Part shown: positions 23,344 to 37,402 of the stretch, one piece after another
Position numbering within the stretch: the first letter of the stretch is position 1
Layout: every line of letters begins with the position of its first letter
NCBI RefSeq assembly: GCF_007859865.1
Contig: NZ_SJPI01000002.1
Coordinates: 640,721 to 704,720 of the forward strand
Direction of reading: 5' to 3'
DNA from: Rubripirellula amarantea
Lineage (GTDB): Bacteria > Planctomycetota > Planctomycetia > Pirellulales > Pirellulaceae
DNA: 64,000 nucleotides
Program-made: the position numbers and the translations under genes
The notes under the pieces: model-generated
What the model saw: only the letters and a program-made list of their open reading frames with translations
Told to the model about the DNA's origin: nothing
The model's database searches: none

Positions 23344-24498
23344 TCAAGAAGCCTTCGCGGGTGAGACGGCTTTTTCTTTTAGCTCGGACTTGTTCTTGCG
23401 GAACCATGACGCCACCACTGGTAAGGTGTGCGCAAAGGGGCCATGGCCGCGAGTCAGTTGAGTCTGCATGAGTTTCTCCCAGCGTTTCATCGTGGGTCTC
23501 AGCGAGCGTCGATCGGCTTCGTTGCGAGGTGCCGCGATCACGTCCGCCACCTCGCCGCTGTGAATCAAGTACCAGATTCCACACCCGTCGTAACCGGCGA
23601 CCGGATAAACGAACGAGTACTTTCGGCGAGCGCTGTTGAGCATCGTGAGCTTGCGTTCGACGTACTCCAGAGATTCGATCATCGTATGATTGCGACCGGC
23701 CAGTTCGTATTGCCGGTTCTTCATCGCTTTGTCGAACTGATCTCGCAAGGTCGTAAGGGGTTCGTTGTTAAAGCCATCCATGAAGCTTTCGGCGGCGCTT
23801 ACGGCAACGTCGTATTCGCGGTGAGTGCAAGCTGCAGCGCACGGACCCAAGCACGTTCCCACCTCGACTCGCAAACAACCCGGGCGATGATCGAGTTCGA
23901 ACAACTGCAATTGCTCGGCAAAGCGAAACACTTGCTTTTGTCCACAATCACGTAGCTTGAAAACGTTGTTCAACGAATCGACGGCGACCTTCATCCGACC
24001 GACGCCAAAGAACGGCCCTTCGGCGGCGATGCAGCCTTCCGGTGGTAACGGTGCCAGGAAGAATGTTGCTGGCGAACGGCCCAAGCATAAATAGACGGGG
24101 CGTTGGCGTTTAGGCACACCCTGCACGTTCCAACGCGGCGAGAACTGGCGAATCAATTGCATCTCGCGTAACAACGATGCGAACTCGCTGGGTTGCGTTT
24201 CCCACTGGATCGCGCGAGCGGCGCTGATGATCCGGCCGCCCTTTTCCTTCTTGTTGGATTCGGCAAAGTAGCTGAGCAATCGCGATCGTAGCGACTTGCT
24301 TTTGCCAACGTAGATCAATTCGCCCTTGCGATCGAGCATCCCGTAGACACCCGGCACCCGCGGACAGGATTCGGTCACACGGTCCTTCAAACGACGCGTC
24401 GACTTCGCTCCCACGGCTTCGAGAGGCCGGGGCGAATACGGGTTGAGCGGATCTCGGCCGAAGCCGATCATCGGCTCGCCGCGCAGAATCGCGTCCAT
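23344..24498 (-). CDS. UvrC-related GIY-YIG nuclease lacking the C-terminal half
   Basis: 384 residues. The GIY-YIG endonuclease domain spans about 45-125: GVY (Tyr52), YVGKSKSLRSRL (Tyr63 and the arginine of the helix) and a glutamate in LLREMQLIRQF (about 112). As in UvrC, a cysteine cluster follows (C208, C216, C220, C224 in GCLRVEVGTCLGPC...C), then a UVR helix pair at about 249-282 (LRDQFDKAMKNRQYELA), the UvrB contact. The RNase-H-like second nuclease and helix-hairpin-helix of UvrC (normally 600 residues) are absent. It could make only the 3' incision, like Cho, but unlike Cho keeps the UVR motif. Likely an accessory repair nuclease. Confidence 0.8.
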   Translation of the reverse strand: MDAILRGEPMIGFGRDPLNPYSPRPLEAVGAKSTRRLKDRVTESCPRVPGVYGMLDRKGELIYVGKSKSLRSRLLSYFAESNKKEKGGRIISAARAIQWETQPSEFASLLREMQLIRQFSPRWNVQGVPKRQRPVYLCLGRSPATFFLAPLPPEGCIAAEGPFFGVGRMKVAVDSLNNVFKLRDCGQKQVFRFAEQLQLFELDHRPGCLRVEVGTCLGPCAAACTHREYDVAVSAAESFMDGFNNEPLTTLRDQFDKAMKNRQYELAGRNHTMIESLEYVERKLTMLNSARRKYSFVYPVAGYDGCGIWYLIHSGEVADVIAAPRNEADRRSLRPTMKRWEKLMQTQLTRGHGPFAHTLPVVASWFRKNKSELKEKAVSPAKAS

Positions 24499-24891: not shown

Positions 24892-24902
24892 CTACATTCC
24901 GC
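24800..24902. repeat. 15-bp tandem array running into the epimerase stop codon
   Basis: Five units of TTGTCCGAAGCCCAC type with rising divergence, then two 14-bp units TG(A/G)CTACATTCCGC. The last unit overlaps the final codons and the stop (24892-24894) of the epimerase gene. Confidence 0.85.
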
Positions 24903-26160
24903 TGCGGAGTGCGTCGAGGTGGCGGCCGAAGTGATCGTCCAGAACTTCGATGTAAGTATCCGGATGAGCCTTCAAGCAGTCGTGAACGATCTTGCCGTAC
25001 TTGTCGTGGGTCAGGACGGAACCGAACGTGCAGTGCAAGATCTGACGACCGGGTTTGGTGAAGCCTTTGCCAACGGGAACGTCAGCCCACATTTCAAGGT
25101 ACTCTGATTCAAGCGTCTTATCGTCGGCTTGGTCTGTGGTCGGAGCGTCCGCCAGGGTGGCTGAAACGTGGTACGTGGCCTTGTCGGTGTCGTAACGTTC
25201 TCGCGAGAAATCAATGATCTCGCGGAACGCGGCACTGTCGTGGCGAGCCACCACTCGAAGGGCTTCAAGGTAGCTGGTGCCCGCTGTCTTGACGTGGAAA
25301 CAACCGCCGGTGGCCTTGGCCAACAAACCGTACATCGAAACCTTGTCGCTGCCACTGTGCAGGCTGATCTTGTAGGGTCCGAGCGACTTTGCGATCGCAG
25401 CGTGATCGTTCAACGATGCTTCGAGTGCGTTGAGGTCGCCCTTGAAATCGACACCCTTTTCGAAGTGTCCAATGAAACGAGGCGCCAGCGAAACCAGCTT
25501 CATGCCGCCACTAAGAACTTGATCGGCGATGATGTAGTGTTCCGCCAAGGTGGTGGGCTGATCGGTTTCGTCGACCGACAATTCGATTTCATAATCGTTG
25601 CCAGCCTTCTCGTTCACTTGCTTGATGTAGTCGCCCAGTTCAAGAGCTCGCGAGATCGCTTTGCCATACTTCACGGCCGCTCTCATGCAGGCTTCTTCGT
25701 TGATGTCGATGACCGTGCCGGTGTCCAGCTTGATCGACTTGCCCAAGTACTTGTCGTACCAACTGGCATCGCTCTTGGACGACGCAAACTTCTCTCGAAG
25801 CGTGGCTTCGTCGTAATCGTCCGCCTTTTGGTCAACGTCGTCGGACGGGTCAATCGTGAAAAAGGTGAATCCTACCGCTGCGGTAACGTCCACATCGTTG
25901 GGGACCTTCAAGTGATCGGCATCGGCGCCGATGGGACCAGTCCAACCGGCCGCTTCCGCCGCGTTCATAGCGTCGTCCATGACCTCAGTCGGCGTGCGCT
26001 GGGTGCGAGTCATCTCGCGGATAGATTGTTGAGGATAGATCGCGGCAATGCCTTCGCCACAACGCTTCATCGAAGCCACGTGGCCGGGGGTTGCCAGTCC
26101 AGTGCGGTCGCCGAATCCAAAGCTGGGTTGCATTCCCAGTGCTACGCATTTCTTAGTCAT
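24892..26160 (-). CDS. uxaE: UxaE-type tagaturonate 3-epimerase
   Basis: 422 residues, cytoplasmic. Family assignment rests on the whole sequence: opening MTKKCVALGMQPSFGFGDRTGLATPGH, the GWTGPIGADADHLK segment and the HSGSDK motif at 268-273, all typical of the tagaturonate/fructuronate epimerase family (UxaE, first described in Thermotoga). The enzyme interconverts D-tagaturonate and D-fructuronate using a metal ion. It is the last gene of a three-gene set transcribed after the lactonase and dehydrogenase, 192 bp downstream of the latter, and would use the product of that dehydrogenase. The 3' end lies in a tandem array. Activity on a related ketouronate or deoxy sugar acid is possible. Confidence 0.8.
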   Translation of the reverse strand: MTKKCVALGMQPSFGFGDRTGLATPGHVASMKRCGEGIAAIYPQQSIREMTRTQRTPTEVMDDAMNAAEAAGWTGPIGADADHLKVPNDVDVTAAVGFTFFTIDPSDDVDQKADDYDEATLREKFASSKSDASWYDKYLGKSIKLDTGTVIDINEEACMRAAVKYGKAISRALELGDYIKQVNEKAGNDYEIELSVDETDQPTTLAEHYIIADQVLSGGMKLVSLAPRFIGHFEKGVDFKGDLNALEASLNDHAAIAKSLGPYKISLHSGSDKVSMYGLLAKATGGCFHVKTAGTSYLEALRVVARHDSAAFREIIDFSRERYDTDKATYHVSATLADAPTTDQADDKTLESEYLEMWADVPVGKGFTKPGRQILHCTFGSVLTHDKYGKIVHDCLKAHPDTYIEVLDDHFGRHLDALRSGM

Positions 26161-26289
26161 AAGGAGAGGTTTCTTTGTCTGAGAGGAGAGTGGGAGGGTG
26201 AAAGCGAGATAAAGAAGCGAATGAAGCGAGGCAGGAACCGCATCGCGTTCGCAAGGGATAGGTCAATATCGAGTCGGCGGCAGCGGATT

Positions 26290-26331
26290 GTTACCAGTGG
26301 ATGGTCACCAGTGGACAGCCACCAGCGGGCG
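26290..26331. repeat. 14-bp tandem array, 3 units
   Basis: G(T/C)(T/C)ACCAG(T/C)GG followed by ATG, ACA or GCG, three times, about 20 bp beyond the 3' end of the dehydrogenase gene. Confidence 0.8.
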
Positions 26332-26352
26332 ATCATTCCGTCGTTAGCGCCG

Positions 26353-27378
26353 TTAGCTGACTTCGATGATGGCCTTGATGACGCCGGTTTCTGGTTTGGT
26401 AAAGGATTCGAAGTCCTTCAACACATCCGTGAAGCTCGTGCGATGCGTGATCCAGGTATCCGTGTTGATCGTGCCGTCTTCGATCAGCCCAATGATGCGA
26501 GTGAAGTCACCCGGCATGGCATTGCGCGACGCCAAGATCGAAGCTTCTGGACGGTGCATCACTGGATGCTTGAACGACAATTCTTCGGTCGTGATCCCGA
26601 CATAAACCAGTGATCCGGTTGGCGCGAGATAGGCGAGGGCTCCCGACATCGAATGTTTGTTGCCGGTCGCGTCTGTAATGACTTGGTACATGTCGCCGTC
26701 GGTAATTTCTTTCATCCGCTCGACTTCGCTGCCGTCGCCCTTGAACAACACCGTGTTGGTGATGCCATAGTTCTTTTCGACGAATGCTAAACGATCGGGA
26801 TTCATGTCCATGACGCTGATGGACGCACCGGTCAAACGTGCAAATTCTAATGTCGCCAAACCGATCGGCCCGGTTCCGATGATCATCGCGTGGTCACCCG
26901 TGGTTGGGTTGCCTCGGTCGTTGGCGTGGCATCCGATCGCCAATGTCTCGACGAGAGCGAGTTGGTCGTAGTTAAGCTTCGTCGAGGTATGCAATTTGTC
27001 TGCACGGACCAGAAACGACTCGCACAAACCACCATCGGTCATCACACCGATCACCTTAAGGTTCTGGCAGCAGTTGATGGCGCCTCGTCGACACGCATAA
27101 CACGTCCCGCAGTTCATGTAGGGTTCGACGCTGCACTTATCGCCGGCTTTCACATTCGTTACGCCATCGCCCACGGCAATCACTTCGACACCGAGTTCGT
27201 GTCCTGGAATCCGCGGGAAATCAAAGAACGGGAACTTGCCGAGGTAACAACTGACGTCGGTTCCGCACACGCCCATGCGGTGCGTTCGCACTAGCGCCTG
27301 GCCAGCGCCGGGAGCACTGGGCTCGTCTATTTCGATGGACCGGAGAGTTTTGACGTCCGAGATTTGGATGGCACGCAT
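26353..27378 (-). CDS. Zn-dependent dehydrogenase, L-galactonate 5-dehydrogenase-like (YjjN/LgoD)
   Basis: 341 residues of the medium-chain dehydrogenase family. Catalytic zinc ligands are Cys38 (GVCGTD), His60 and Glu61 (PGHE); structural zinc cysteines are C90, C93, C96 and C104. The Rossmann fold has GTGPIGLAT, with aspartate in VMDMN favouring NAD. From memory, several blocks closely match E. coli YjjN/LgoD: the FPFFDFPRIPGHE loop, LKVIGVMTDGG, and DATGNKHSM...SRNAMPGDF. YjjN oxidises L-galactonate to D-tagaturonate. That is exactly the substrate of the UxaE-type enzyme encoded next, and the lactonase gene just upstream would supply the acid. Alternative: another L-sugar acid such as L-fuconate or L-gulonate. 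Confidence 0.8.
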   Translation of the reverse strand: MRAIQISDVKTLRSIEIDEPSAPGAGQALVRTHRMGVCGTDVSCYLGKFPFFDFPRIPGHELGVEVIAVGDGVTNVKAGDKCSVEPYMNCGTCYACRRGAINCCQNLKVIGVMTDGGLCESFLVRADKLHTSTKLNYDQLALVETLAIGCHANDRGNPTTGDHAMIIGTGPIGLATLEFARLTGASISVMDMNPDRLAFVEKNYGITNTVLFKGDGSEVERMKEITDGDMYQVITDATGNKHSMSGALAYLAPTGSLVYVGITTEELSFKHPVMHRPEASILASRNAMPGDFTRIIGLIEDGTINTDTWITHRTSFTDVLKDFESFTKPETGVIKAIIEVS

Positions 27379-27515
27379 GAGTTACGTTTAAAGGTTGAAG
27401 GTGTGAGATGAATCAGGAGGGACAGTCCGAGCCAATCGTTGGCAAACGACGATTGGAAAATCAGACGCTCGGGCCAGCGCGAAAACCCTGGCCGGCGGTC
27501 AAATGCAAATACAGC

Positions 27516-28355
27516 TTAAGCTAAGTTGTAAGCCCGAGTGGCGTTGCCAGCGAACAGTTTCTGTTGTTCGTCGGCGGAAAGATCCGCCGCAAGCTCGCGG
27601 ACGGTCGCGAGCCAACGGTCGTAGCCGGTCTTCAACAAACACACCGGCCAATCGCTGCCAAACATGAGGCGATCGATGCCAAAAGCATCAAGCGCGATGG
27701 CGAAGTAAGGTTTGATGGTTTCGATCGACCAGGTTGCATCTTTGACTTCCGTTGCCACACCCGAGAACTTGCACATCAGGTGCTGTTCCTTGGCGAGCTC
27801 GCGAAAGCCTTGTTCCCACTCGGTATCGAGCTTGCCGCTCTTAATGGTTGGCTTGCCGATATGGTCAAGGACCATGGGAATGCCTGCGTGATGGCGAACA
27901 AACTCGATCGTGGCGGGAAGTTGGTTGGCAAAGATCAAGACGTCGTACACCAAACCTCGGTCTGCCAACTGGGCAACACCGCGATTGAAGTCCTTGTTCA
28001 GCAACTGGGCTTCAACAGGTTCGCCTTGGATCACATGACGCACCCCTTTAAGAATCTTCGACTTCGAATCCGCGAAACGGTCCAGCACCTCGCCAACGTT
28101 TGCTTCGGCAAGCGGAACCCATCCGACAACACCTTTAATCAACGGCTCGTTGGCTGCGATTTCAATCAGTGCGGTCGTTTCTTCGATGACTTGGCGAGCT
28201 TGAACCGAAACAAATCCGGTCACGCCATTGGCGGCTGATACCTCGCGGAGCTCTGCTGCCAAAAAATCTTTTTGCAGCACTTCCATGCCCGGGCCAATCC
28301 AGCCGTATTCTTCGACGGAGTACTTCCATAGGTGGTGATGGGAATCAATCAGCAT
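27516..28355 (-). CDS. COG3618 amidohydrolase, sugar-acid lactonase
   Basis: 279 residues. Signature of the amidohydrolase-2 family used by L-fucono-, L-rhamnono- and L-galactono-lactonases: N-terminal DSHHHLW (metal histidines), VLDHIGKP in the middle, LMFGSDWPVCLL near the end with the catalytic aspartate. It is a cytoplasmic TIM-barrel hydrolase opening a 1,5- or 1,4-lactone to the free acid. It is the first gene of the set reading to 24892 and is separated by 137 bp from the dehydrogenase. With those neighbours L-galactono-1,5-lactone is the best-fitting substrate; L-fuconolactone is the main alternative. Confidence 0.85.
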   Translation of the reverse strand: MLIDSHHHLWKYSVEEYGWIGPGMEVLQKDFLAAELREVSAANGVTGFVSVQARQVIEETTALIEIAANEPLIKGVVGWVPLAEANVGEVLDRFADSKSKILKGVRHVIQGEPVEAQLLNKDFNRGVAQLADRGLVYDVLIFANQLPATIEFVRHHAGIPMVLDHIGKPTIKSGKLDTEWEQGFRELAKEQHLMCKFSGVATEVKDATWSIETIKPYFAIALDAFGIDRLMFGSDWPVCLLKTGYDRWLATVRELAADLSADEQQKLFAGNATRAYNLA

Positions 28356-28790: not shown

Positions 28791-29390
28791 ATGTCCAGCC
28801 AACTGACCGACCGACAGCAAAACGTGTACGACATGATTAGGGGCTTGATCGTCAAGCGCGGTTATGGACCTACCGTTCGAGAGATCGGAGAGCACTTCGG
28901 CATTAAAAGTCCTAATGGTGTGATGTGTCACTTGCGAGCATTAGAGCGCAAGGGACTGATTACCCGCAGTCCTAACAAGTCACGCGCGATTGAGTTGACG
29001 CACGCTGCGGACCGCAACGGACATTCGTTGCCAATGGCAGGTGTCGTCGCTGCCGGCCCAACCACGTTGGCGCTTGAACAAAATGAACTGATGGATTTCA
29101 GTGAAATGTTGTTCAAGGATGACCGGTTTATCTTGCAAGTCTCTGGCGATTCGATGATCGATGCGCACATCACCGACGGTGATTATGTCGTGATTCAAAA
29201 GCAAGATCACGCCGAGGTTGGCCAAATGGTGGTCGCCCAGACGGACGAGGGTGAAGCGACGTTGAAGTTTTGGTACCCCGAAGGTGAATACATTCGCCTG
29301 CAACCGGCTAATTCGACGATGGAACCGATCTTCGTTCGCAACGCTCACGTGATCGGCGTTGCCGTTGGAGTCGTCCGCTCAGGAATCTGA
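28791..29390 (+). CDS. lexA: LexA repressor
   Basis: 199 residues, the usual LexA length. The N-terminal winged helix reads TDRQQNVYDMIRGLIVKRGYGPTVREIGEHFGIKSPNGV; the C-terminal peptidase domain has the Ala88-Gly89 self-cleavage site in VVAAGPT, nucleophile Ser121 in SGDSM and Lys159 in EATLKFW. It represses SOS genes until RecA triggers self-cleavage. No typical E. coli or Gram-positive SOS box was recognised upstream, so the binding site in this lineage may differ. Divergent from the sugar-acid operon. Confidence 0.95.
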   Translation: MSSQLTDRQQNVYDMIRGLIVKRGYGPTVREIGEHFGIKSPNGVMCHLRALERKGLITRSPNKSRAIELTHAADRNGHSLPMAGVVAAGPTTLALEQNELMDFSEMLFKDDRFILQVSGDSMIDAHITDGDYVVIQKQDHAEVGQMVVAQTDEGEATLKFWYPEGEYIRLQPANSTMEPIFVRNAHVIGVAVGVVRSGI

Positions 29391-35388: not shown

Positions 35389-36405
35389 TCAGCTTGGGAC
35401 AAAACTCTTGGCGTGAGCTTCGCGTTGGGCTAGTTCCAGGTCGTGCTGGGTCATGATGCGAGCGAGTTCTTCCAGGTCGGTCGCCGGTGTCCATCCCAGT
35501 TTTTCTTTAGCCTTGGAAGCATCGCCGAGCAACAAATCCACTTCGGCCGGACGGAAGTATCGTGGGTCAATTTCGACAAAGTCTTGATAGTCAAGATCGA
35601 GTTGTTCGAACACGAGCCGACAAAAATCTCGGACCGATTCGGTGCGTCCGGTCGCTAGCACAAAGTCGTCTGGTTCGCTGTGTTGCAGGATGCGCCACAT
35701 GCCTTCGACGTAATCCTTGGCGTAACCCCAATCGCGTTTGGCATCAAGATTTCCAAGATACAGCTTCTTTTGCATGCCGACCTTGATGCGGCCTGCGGCG
35801 CGAGTGATTTTTCGTGTGACGAAAGTTTCACCACGACGCTCTGATTCATGATTGAACAGAATACCGTTGCTGGCGAACATGTCGTAACCGCGTCGGTAGT
35901 TCACGGTTTGGTGGAATGCGTAAACCTTGGCACACGCGTAGGGCGATTGAGGGTTGAACGGCGTGGTTTCTTTTTGAGGCGTTTCAAGAACGTCGCCGTA
36001 CATCTCACTACTACTGGCCTGGTAAACCTTCGTTTGCTTTTTCTTGTTCAGCAGGCGTGCGGCTTCGAGCACATTCAACGCACCTACTCCAACCGTTTGC
36101 AAAGTGTAAACCGGTTGGTCGTACGAAACGCGGACGTGGCTTTGGGCACCGAGGTTGTAGATTTCATCGGGTTCGATGTCCAACACCAAGTTGCTTAGCG
36201 CCTGGCCATCAGTCAGGTCACCGTAGTGCAACATCATGTTTCCCTTCTCGTGCACGTCTTGGTAGATATGCTCGATTCGCTCAGTCGCAAAGGTGCTGCT
36301 ACGTCGGACGAGTCCGTGGACAAGGTATCCCTTGGAAAGCAGTAACTCGGCGAGGTAACTTCCGTCTTGGCCGGTGATGCCAGTGATGAGTGCGGATTTA
36401 GACAT
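35389..36405 (-). CDS. gmd: GDP-mannose 4,6-dehydratase
   Basis: 338 residues of the extended short-chain dehydrogenase family. NAD(P)-binding [15 protein letters not shown] at the N-terminus, SSSEMYG before the active site, and the Y-x-x-x-K pair in [13 protein letters not shown]. The sequence [17 protein letters not shown] and the late [16 protein letters not shown] are typical of Gmd. It converts GDP-D-mannose to GDP-4-keto-6-deoxymannose, the first step toward GDP-L-fucose. It is the second gene of an fcl-gmd pair, 43 bp after fcl, so both steps are cotranscribed. Confidence 0.95.
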
Positions 36406-36448: not shown

Positions 36449-37402
36449 CTAAACAGAACGCAGTTCGCCGGCTTGAGTTTCAGCCAAGAAACATTGATAG
36501 GTCCGACGTAAGCCTTCTTCCAAAGCGACTTGGTGTTTCCACCCGGTGGCATGGAGTTTCGTCGCATCGGTGCATTTGACGGGTGTACCGTCTGGACGCG
36601 AAGGGTCGGTCTCGATAGCGCCATCGTAGCCAACCGTCTTGGCGACCAATTTTGCTACCTCAAGAATTGTCACGTCAACGCCCGTGCCGACGTTGACCCA
36701 GTTGGGCGGATTATCGAGTGATGCAAGGTGAACCAGCGCATCGGCCAAATCGTCAACGTACAAAAACTCGCGACGCGGCGATCCGGTTCCCCAAATCGTC
36801 ACGCTGGGGTCACCGTTGATCTTGGCTTCATGAAAGCGACGAATCAACGCGGGTAATACGTGTGAGTGTTCGGGGTGATAATTGTCACCGGGACCGTACA
36901 AGTTGGTCGGCATCGCACTATGGAACAACACTCCATATTGGCGTCGATAGTACTCGCACAATTTCAGCCCCGAGATTTTCGCCAGCGCGTAGGCCTCGTT
37001 GGTGGATTCAAGTGGACCGGTCAGTAGCGATTCTTCAACGATTGGTTGAGCGCAATCGCGCGGATAGATGCACGTGCTACCTAGAAACAAGAACCGCTTC
37101 ACGCCGGTTTCGTGGGCGGCTCGGATGGCCGAAACCGACATCAGCACGTTGTCAGCCAAAAACTCAACCGGAAAGGTGTTGTTAGCCACGATTCCGCCAA
37201 CTTTGGCTGCGGCGAAAATGACGGCGTCGAACTTGTGATCGGCAAAGAACGCACTGGTGGCCGCCGGATCCGTCAGGTCCAGCTCATTTCGGGTCGCCGT
37301 TACGATTTCGCCGTCGATTCCTTCAAGACGCCGGCACAGCGCCGATCCAACCATTCCACGATGGCCGGCGACGAAAATCTTTCCTGATAATGCTGAGTTC
37401 AT
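36449..37402 (-). CDS. fcl: GDP-L-fucose synthase
   Basis: 317 residues. Rossmann motif [16 protein letters not shown], active-site segments GSTCIYP and [11 protein letters not shown], and the [13 protein letters not shown] helix all fit GDP-4-keto-6-deoxy-D-mannose 3,5-epimerase-4-reductase (WcaG/Fcl). It completes GDP-L-fucose for polysaccharide or glycoprotein synthesis in the cytoplasm. First gene of the pair with gmd; the 393 bp before it should contain the promoter. Confidence 0.95.

Follow-up and report, generated by a model that had tools for sequence, protein, structure and literature searches.

Which sugar acid is handled by a planctomycete locus in which genes for a lactonase-like protein (LAC), a zinc dehydrogenase (DH) and a UxaE-type epimerase follow one another? 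The trio lies in a stretch of 64,000 nucleotides of Rubripirellula amarantea (contig NZ_SJPI01000002.1; hereafter the window) and had been read, in an original prediction made from the sequence, as an operon leading from L-galactonolactone via L-galactonate and D-tagaturonate to D-fructuronate. This route is backed by conserved neighbourhoods and by an exchange of UxaE and UxaB among relatives, but the pathway appears to be longer than had been claimed. Judging from sequence comparisons, we consider it quite probable that the trio forms the middle of a pathway for the oxidation of L-galactose and probably also of L-glucose. Gene content, conservation, co-occurrence and residue conservation were established directly, and it is from these that we infer every reaction in this organism.

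In the proposed route, an aldo/keto reductase (AKR) of the L-galactose dehydrogenase type would oxidise L-galactose to L-galactono-1,5-lactone, which LAC would open to L-galactonate. DH would then oxidise C5 to give D-tagaturonate, and UxaE would turn this into D-fructuronate by retro-aldol/aldol chemistry. A mannonate oxidoreductase of the short-chain dehydrogenase/reductase (SDR) type may subsequently form D-mannonate, from which a dehydratase would yield 2-keto-3-deoxy-D-gluconate (KDG), while KDG kinase followed by 2-keto-3-deoxy-6-phosphogluconate (KDPG) aldolase would deliver pyruvate and glyceraldehyde-3-phosphate. The IolO-type epimerase encoded next to AKR could feed 5-keto-L-gluconate (from L-gluconate) into the same route as D-tagaturonate.

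Exchange of UxaE and UxaB in the family

The exchange of UxaE and UxaB across genomes is the strongest support for this route. Among 149 genomes of the same family, UxaE-like proteins were found in 88, AKR in 90 (E 1e-40), DH in 93 (1e-60), the IolO-type epimerase in 86 (1e-50) and UxaB-type proteins in 10 (1e-20); as these genomes are related, all p values are indicative. UxaE and AKR occurred together in 77 genomes, UxaE alone in 11, AKR alone in 13 and neither in 48 (p 1e-16). UxaB, which was found in AKR genomes only, was present in 10 of the 13 that lack UxaE and in none of the 77 that carry it (Fisher p 5e-11), three AKR genomes having neither (G037, G065, G133). Counted by genus, 33 of the 41 AKR genera had UxaE only, 6 UxaB only, one neither and one both (p 1e-5); in the latter (g39) the two reside in different genomes, that is, a switch occurred within the genus. 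The own genome contained no match to a UxaB-type planctomycete query at E 1e-20.

The other genes follow suit. DH accompanied AKR in 83 of 90 genomes and UxaE in 83 of 88 (conversely, 83 of the 93 DH genomes have AKR), and the IolO-type epimerase was present in 86 of the 90 AKR genomes as compared to none of the 59 without AKR. The SDR (87 genomes at E 1e-65, 71 of them kept at at least 63% identity) accompanied UxaE in 56 of 77 AKR genomes and UxaB in only 1 of 10. D-tagaturonate is the common substrate of UxaE and UxaB, the SDR takes over what UxaE forms, and IolO converts 5-keto-L-gluconate into D-tagaturonate. Given these family reactions, DH should therefore make D-tagaturonate, or 5-keto-L-gluconate for IolO, which points to the 5-oxidation of L-galactonate or L-gluconate. 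UxaE had originally been proposed to stand in for "uxaB/uxaC"; because UxaC lies outside the L-galactonate route, it is UxaB that is replaced.

The gene neighbourhoods show the same exchange. One genome carries UxaB inside the AKR-DH operon, between DH and the IolO gene (L100; order AKR-DH-UxaB-IolO-FucU-LACb, where LACb is a second lactonase type found in the larger operons of relatives, 35% identical to LAC). UxaB directly follows DH in L114 and L119, is divergent from AKR-LACb in L112 and L120, and adjoins a UxaA-family gene in L113 and L117. The last gene of the UxaB-type operon (L100:13497-14423) matched no NCBIfam model at 1e-20 and no Pfam family.

By identity to the query, the UxaE-like proteins fall into set A (at least 63%; 40 genomes, own included), set B (51-55%; 6 genomes) and set C (about 29-36%, one fragment apart; 45 genomes); these add up to more than 88, as two sets are present in G003 and all three in G019. 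Flanked stretches were examined for 40 of the UxaE-like places. G055 (L035) and the same-genus G131 (L036) show LAC, DH and UxaE in the same order, G148, G086, G036 and G013 (L090-L093) have LAC next to DH but no UxaE with them, and in many loci of relatives the neighbour of DH is UxaE or UxaB. A larger same-strand set in L045 comprises AKR, DH, IolO, UxaE, a FucU-like mutarotase, SDR and a lactonase of the LACb type, and recurs in L042 without AKR; the SDR is part of only some larger sets, and other relatives have UxaE alone. Eighty named genome loci also hold the short UxaE form of the window (66-86% identity), the nearest being metagenome-assembled genomes (MAGs) of Rubripirellula and Rhodopirellula (84-86%). 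These loci, many of them short contigs, hold DH (39), IolO (32), AKR (21), FucU (16), LACb (12), an SDR match (10) and the window-type LAC (5). LAC-DH-UxaE in this order was seen in five, one being a Verrucomicrobiales MAG and another (L140) probably the same record as the G131 contig. A likely pathway can hereby be assigned to this short UxaE form. Chance adjacency of the trio was rejected in view of its conservation in relatives and of the co-occurrence.

Two further arrangements deserve mention. In three loci of one genus (L055, L057, L058), a set B UxaE gene overlaps a DH gene whose product is about 43% identical to the window DH; the loci share a block of 14 genes, which in L055 includes an L-fucose mutarotase, and the block possibly serves another substrate. 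In the same-genus genome G142, the DH is of a Bacteroides type (53% identical to that of the faecal contig L101, see below) and stands beside a LAC 46% identical to that of the window. This stretch (L070, G142:C221:16000-32000), which also harbours a gene of the RbsD/FucU type and a different aldo/keto reductase near the lactonase, is perhaps a separately acquired L-fucose/L-galactose operon.

The three enzymes and their likely substrates

All three family assignments of the original prediction, namely a COG3618 lactonase-like protein (PF04909), a zinc dehydrogenase (ADH_N and ADH_zinc_N domains) and UxaE (PF16257), were confirmed. LAC matches Amidohydro_2 with 162 bits, and the closest solved structure by sequence is 4dlf (192 bits), in an alignment that includes the HxH, DHxGKP and GSDWPV stretches. 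Its best-matching model is the L-fucono-1,5-lactonase NF052480 (267 bits); since the curated cut-off of 400 was missed, LAC is filed as a lactonase-like superfamily member and not as a fuconolactonase. The match nevertheless lends weight to an oxidation of L-fucose (6-deoxy-L-galactose) by a fuconolactonase, a fuconate dehydrogenase and an epimerase that has come to act on deoxy substrates, as do the mutarotases of relatives, which match the L-fucose mutarotase model (cut-off 141) weakly in L045 (39 bits) and clearly in L055 (174 bits). A fuconate dehydratase may also be encoded in the own genome, because three enolase-superfamily matches lie below the ManD cut-off. We regard an L-fucose pathway as unlikely, however, for UxaB replaces UxaE across genomes, and the families of UxaE, UxaB, IolO, the SDR mannonate oxidoreductase and KDG kinase are known for acids that are hydroxylated at C6. 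Moreover, LguA, the AKR of an otherwise matching pathway in Luteolibacter, has no activity with L-fucose (PMC12632266). Within a pathway for L-galactose and L-glucose, LAC is likely an L-galactono/L-glucono-1,5-lactonase.

UxaE covers positions 79-475 of the 475 in the PF16257 profile (385 bits, cut-off 27.1) and matches the solved structures 9lhu (273 bits) and Cohnella UxaE (6il9, 233 bits). At 422 residues versus about 490-507 in the solved enzymes, roughly 80-100 N-terminal residues are absent. The acid/base residues Glu126 and Asp159, which are assigned to the retro-aldol mechanism of Cohnella UxaE in excerpts of PMC11194214, correspond in the alignment to E49 and D82 here (with an inferred one-residue offset in chain numbering); both are invariant in an alignment of eight UxaE sequences and kept in a set C protein (L061). 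By these sequence features, the protein is likely a D-tagaturonate/D-fructuronate epimerase. It might instead serve the breakdown of D-galacturonate, with its neighbours acting on another sugar acid (e. g., L-gulonate, converted to D-fructuronate), and L-gulonate dehydrogenases do occur among the medium-chain dehydrogenases/reductases (MDR) near the DH group. Canonical UxaE has furthermore been described in the hexuronate network (Rodionova 2012, via excerpts of PMC5673643). Such a division of labour seems rather improbable, as UxaE co-occurs with AKR and DH in the genomes compared, fructuronate would be the immediate product of an L-gulonate dehydrogenase, and the UxaB exchange would be left unexplained.

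For DH, assigned here to L-galactonate, the best NCBIfam model is PRK10083 (171 bits, under the cut-off of 376). The proposed likeness to YjjN/LgoD stood in so far as LgoD scored best among seven E. coli superfamily enzymes (33% of 317 residues identical, 201 bits; RspB 140, YdjJ 107, GatD 95, Tdh 86, IdnD 72, Ahr 45); the Bacteroides-type dehydrogenase of faecal contig L101 (31% identity) comes close behind with 188 bits. In a tree of 28 proteins, the planctomycete DHs, taken beside UxaE of sets A, B or C or beside UxaB, grouped together (support 85/77); LgoD, 33-40% identical to them, joins with a support of 94/95, which narrowly misses the starred level, and the Bacteroides-type DH follows at 87/56, with RspB, Tdh, GatD, IdnD and YdjJ outside. 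DH is likely an L-galactonate (L-gluconate) 5-dehydrogenase. A Thermotoga-type inositol pathway, with DH as IolM (scyllo-inosose 3-dehydrogenase), the amidohydrolase as ring-opening hydrolase and IolO and UxaE downstream, is hardly credible: although the gene set includes an IolO-type epimerase and DH matches the IolM model with 157 bits, this score is far under the cut-off of 450, slightly below that for PRK10083 and unspecific because LgoD itself reaches 193 bits, while AKR and mutarotase indicate an aldose.

Relatives of DH outside the planctomycetes were also sought in a phage collection (52 records below 60% identity). Three contigs from faeces that are labelled Bacteriophage sp. (L101, L102 and L103; MT837805.1, MT836791.1 and MT839387.1) carry dehydrogenase genes, in L101 along with AKR, amidohydrolase and major facilitator superfamily (MFS) genes; all three look like bacterial DNA.

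Remaining pathway genes and objections to the route

The own genome carries candidate genes for most of the remaining steps. Its AKR is 65% identical to that of L045, which matches solved L-galactose dehydrogenases with 302 to 246 bits (9w6y, 302), the next other AKR reaching 106. The gene that follows AKR encodes a protein with 213 bits to the IolO equivalog model (cut-off 300); its L045 relative scores 232 bits and has TM_0416 as best solved-structure match. The SDR passes the D-mannonate oxidoreductase subfamily cut-off (333 versus 281 bits) and adjoins a PfkB kinase gene whose product has the KDG kinase 2afb as best solved match (117 bits), and two copies of the KDPG aldolase family (PF01081) are present. 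Of the genes for which a search had been suggested, this accounts for the L-galactose dehydrogenase type, an SDR of the uxuB type and a gene resembling KDG kinase, but uxuA was not found.

Several observations weigh against the proposed L-galactose route. One concerns the D-mannonate dehydratase, for which the UxuA, ManD, UxaA-like and IlvD/EDD families yielded no convincing candidate in the own genome: UxuA (PF03786) was not found; the best ManD-type match (NF011654, E 7.8e-19) did not reach the cut-off, which was reached in 3 of the 149 genomes; and the UxaA-like protein, which matches galactarate dehydratase below threshold (349 versus a cut-off of 731), is of a family that does not co-occur with AKR (67 of 90 genomes with versus 43 of 59 without AKR, p 0.85). 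There are three IlvD/EDD-family matches. LAC and DH both remain under NCBIfam equivalog cut-offs, and LAC differs from the lactonase of most larger operons, so that its role rests on adjacency; it shares, in addition, no more than 19% identity with the amidohydrolase encoded in the gut cluster L101, which is of the L-galactose type. In the DH tree, which was computed without LguD, the LgoD grouping is unstarred with a long LgoD branch, and the planctomycete group itself is at 85/77. The name UxaB-type was given by best match, because the three proteins scanned (345, 343 and 297 bits) fall under the subfamily cut-off of 359.

The distribution also has exceptions. Eleven UxaE genomes and 10 DH genomes are without AKR, and four AKR genomes are without IolO. 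G077 (L038) has LAC beside UxaE, and neither DH nor AKR in the genome. Two genomes of the same genus deviate as well, G116 with AKR, IolO and a set C UxaE and no DH at threshold, and G142 with UxaE and neither AKR nor IolO. Finally, AKR is absent from four of the six set B genomes; together with the L-fucose-type mutarotase of L055, this means that UxaE of the set B kind need not always serve L-galactose.

Relation to known pathways and setting of the locus

The arrangement had been considered new. This holds for the UxaE variant, but the core is known from Bacteroides vulgatus and Luteolibacter sp. LG18; the arrangement is a variant of pathways that were described in 2014 and 2025. In LG18, a dual L-glucose/L-galactose pathway (LguA-H) was shown by assays and knockouts (PMC12632266). 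By kcat/Km, LguA shows a 40-fold preference for L-galactose over L-glucose, L-gluconate and L-galactonate are oxidised about equally well by LguD, and LguG, found by homology to IolO and adjoining an rbsD-annotated gene, converts 5-keto-L-gluconate into D-tagaturonate and is required for L-glucose only, while LguC, LguB, LguH and LguE complete the route (PMC12632266). According to the authors' KEGG and NCBI searches, all seven Lgu orthologues occur only in Luteolibacter species, and in none are six present with lguG missing; Planctomycetota appear among clusters of Lgu sequences in one sentence (PMC12632266).

Both sets have an AKR, a 5-dehydrogenase, an IolO-type C-4 epimerase whose gene is close to an rbsD-annotated one, a branch point at D-tagaturonate, KDG kinase and KDPG aldolase in common, the likeness to LguA and LguG being a family resemblance and not a direct comparison; a back-translated pattern of the LguA N-terminus occurred at 0 places in the genome contigs. 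In LG18, LguC reduces D-tagaturonate and LguB dehydrates D-altronate, whereas the planctomycete set has UxaE and the SDR mannonate oxidoreductase instead; a lactonase, UxaE or fructuronate are nowhere mentioned in the main text on LG18 (PMC12632266). The set closely matches an LG18-type pathway in which UxaE and SDR replace LguC and LguB, in another phylum.

Most surprising is the near-obligatory IolO-type epimerase, which the original prediction did not include. Its retention is noteworthy because the matching LG18 gene is needed for L-glucose only, and it prompts the question of whether sugars of the L-glucose type exist in nature. We tentatively propose, as a possibility that falls short of the probable, that a dual L-galactose/L-glucose pathway is widespread within this planctomycete family and comes in two interchangeable forms, UxaE/mannonate and UxaB/altronate, with IolO retained owing to real L-gluco substrates or an unrecognised role of the epimerase. 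If true, L-gluco-configured sugars, presumed absent from nature, would be a real substrate in planctomycete habitats or, alternatively, the IolO-type epimerase would have an unrecognised function in L-galactose use. Planctomycetes are known as polysaccharide degraders, and the gene set offers a genetic explanation, open to testing, of how this large bacterial group may use L-galactose; UxaE and UxaB-type enzymes trade places in it at one metabolic node.

In Bacteroides (Phocaeicola) vulgatus, an AKR, an amidohydrolase-type lactonase and a zinc dehydrogenase (BVU_0219, 0220 and 0222) reportedly lead to D-tagaturonate, as attributed to Hobbs 2014; the planctomycete set has the same three kinds of enzyme. 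The gene order on faecal contig L101 (AKR, amidohydrolase, MFS, DH) presumably corresponds to this cluster; as a difference from the planctomycete set, no UxaE is encoded on the 6.2 kb contig. The B. vulgatus conversion of L-galactose to D-tagaturonate is also referred to in PMC12632266 (citing Hobbs 2014). The E. coli lgo system (LgoD/YjjN, UxaB, UxaA), to whose LgoD the window DH is nearest among the E. coli enzymes compared, has a symporter and a regulator at its locus and neither lactonase nor UxaE; E. coli takes up L-galactonate and uses the D-altronate route. In Thermotoga maritima, too, UxaE is paired with a mannonate oxidoreductase of the SDR type, namely UxaD (Rodionova 2012, via excerpts of PMC5673643), but there UxaE serves hexuronates, whereas the planctomycete form is shorter and tied to L-galactose-type genes. 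Among the matches listed from open-licence PMC full texts, no excerpt places UxaE in a pathway for L-galactose or L-galactonate, and apart from the one sentence in PMC12632266 none deals with this pathway in planctomycetes; PMC5507952 is the sole listed paper in which both LgoD and UxaE occur, UxaE in the reference list only.

The three open reading frames (ORFs) of the trio were confirmed on one strand, as had been stated (Table 1). The gaps of 137 bp (LAC/DH) and 192 bp (DH/UxaE) are wide for an operon, and scans for promoters (3 versus a mean of 1.8) and terminators (4 versus 4.3) remained at about shuffle level; co-transcription of the predicted operon is nonetheless likely. The flanking genes include neither a sugar transporter nor a sugar regulator adjoining the trio.

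Table 1. Positions of the trio, of its surroundings in the window and of the remaining pathway genes in the own genome (G000)
Feature	Position	Strand	Length	Remark
LAC, COG3618-type lactonase	27516-28355	minus	279 aa	
DH, zinc MDR dehydrogenase	26353-27378	minus	341 aa	
UxaE-type epimerase	24892-26160	minus	422 aa	
LexA gene	28791-29390	divergent		flanks the trio
GIY-YIG gene	23344-24498	minus		downstream of UxaE; domain 28 bits, N-terminal third
Antisense ORF	25168-26613	plus	481 aa	overlaps UxaE and part of DH
AKR, L-galactose-dehydrogenase-type	G000:C1:1599598-1600530 (L081:9599-10534)			own genome
IolO-type 5-keto-L-gluconate epimerase	L081:10612-11427			follows AKR in own genome
SDR, D-mannonate oxidoreductase subfamily	C1:1661064-1661867			own genome

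The antisense ORF was rejected as a gene, since codon score and homology prefer the minus strand. About 7 kb from the trio, the window furthermore carries genes for a GDP-mannose 4,6-dehydratase and an NAD-dependent epimerase (35389-36405 and 36449-37402, minus strand), a pair that looks like a module for the synthesis of GDP-L-fucose or a related GDP-sugar.

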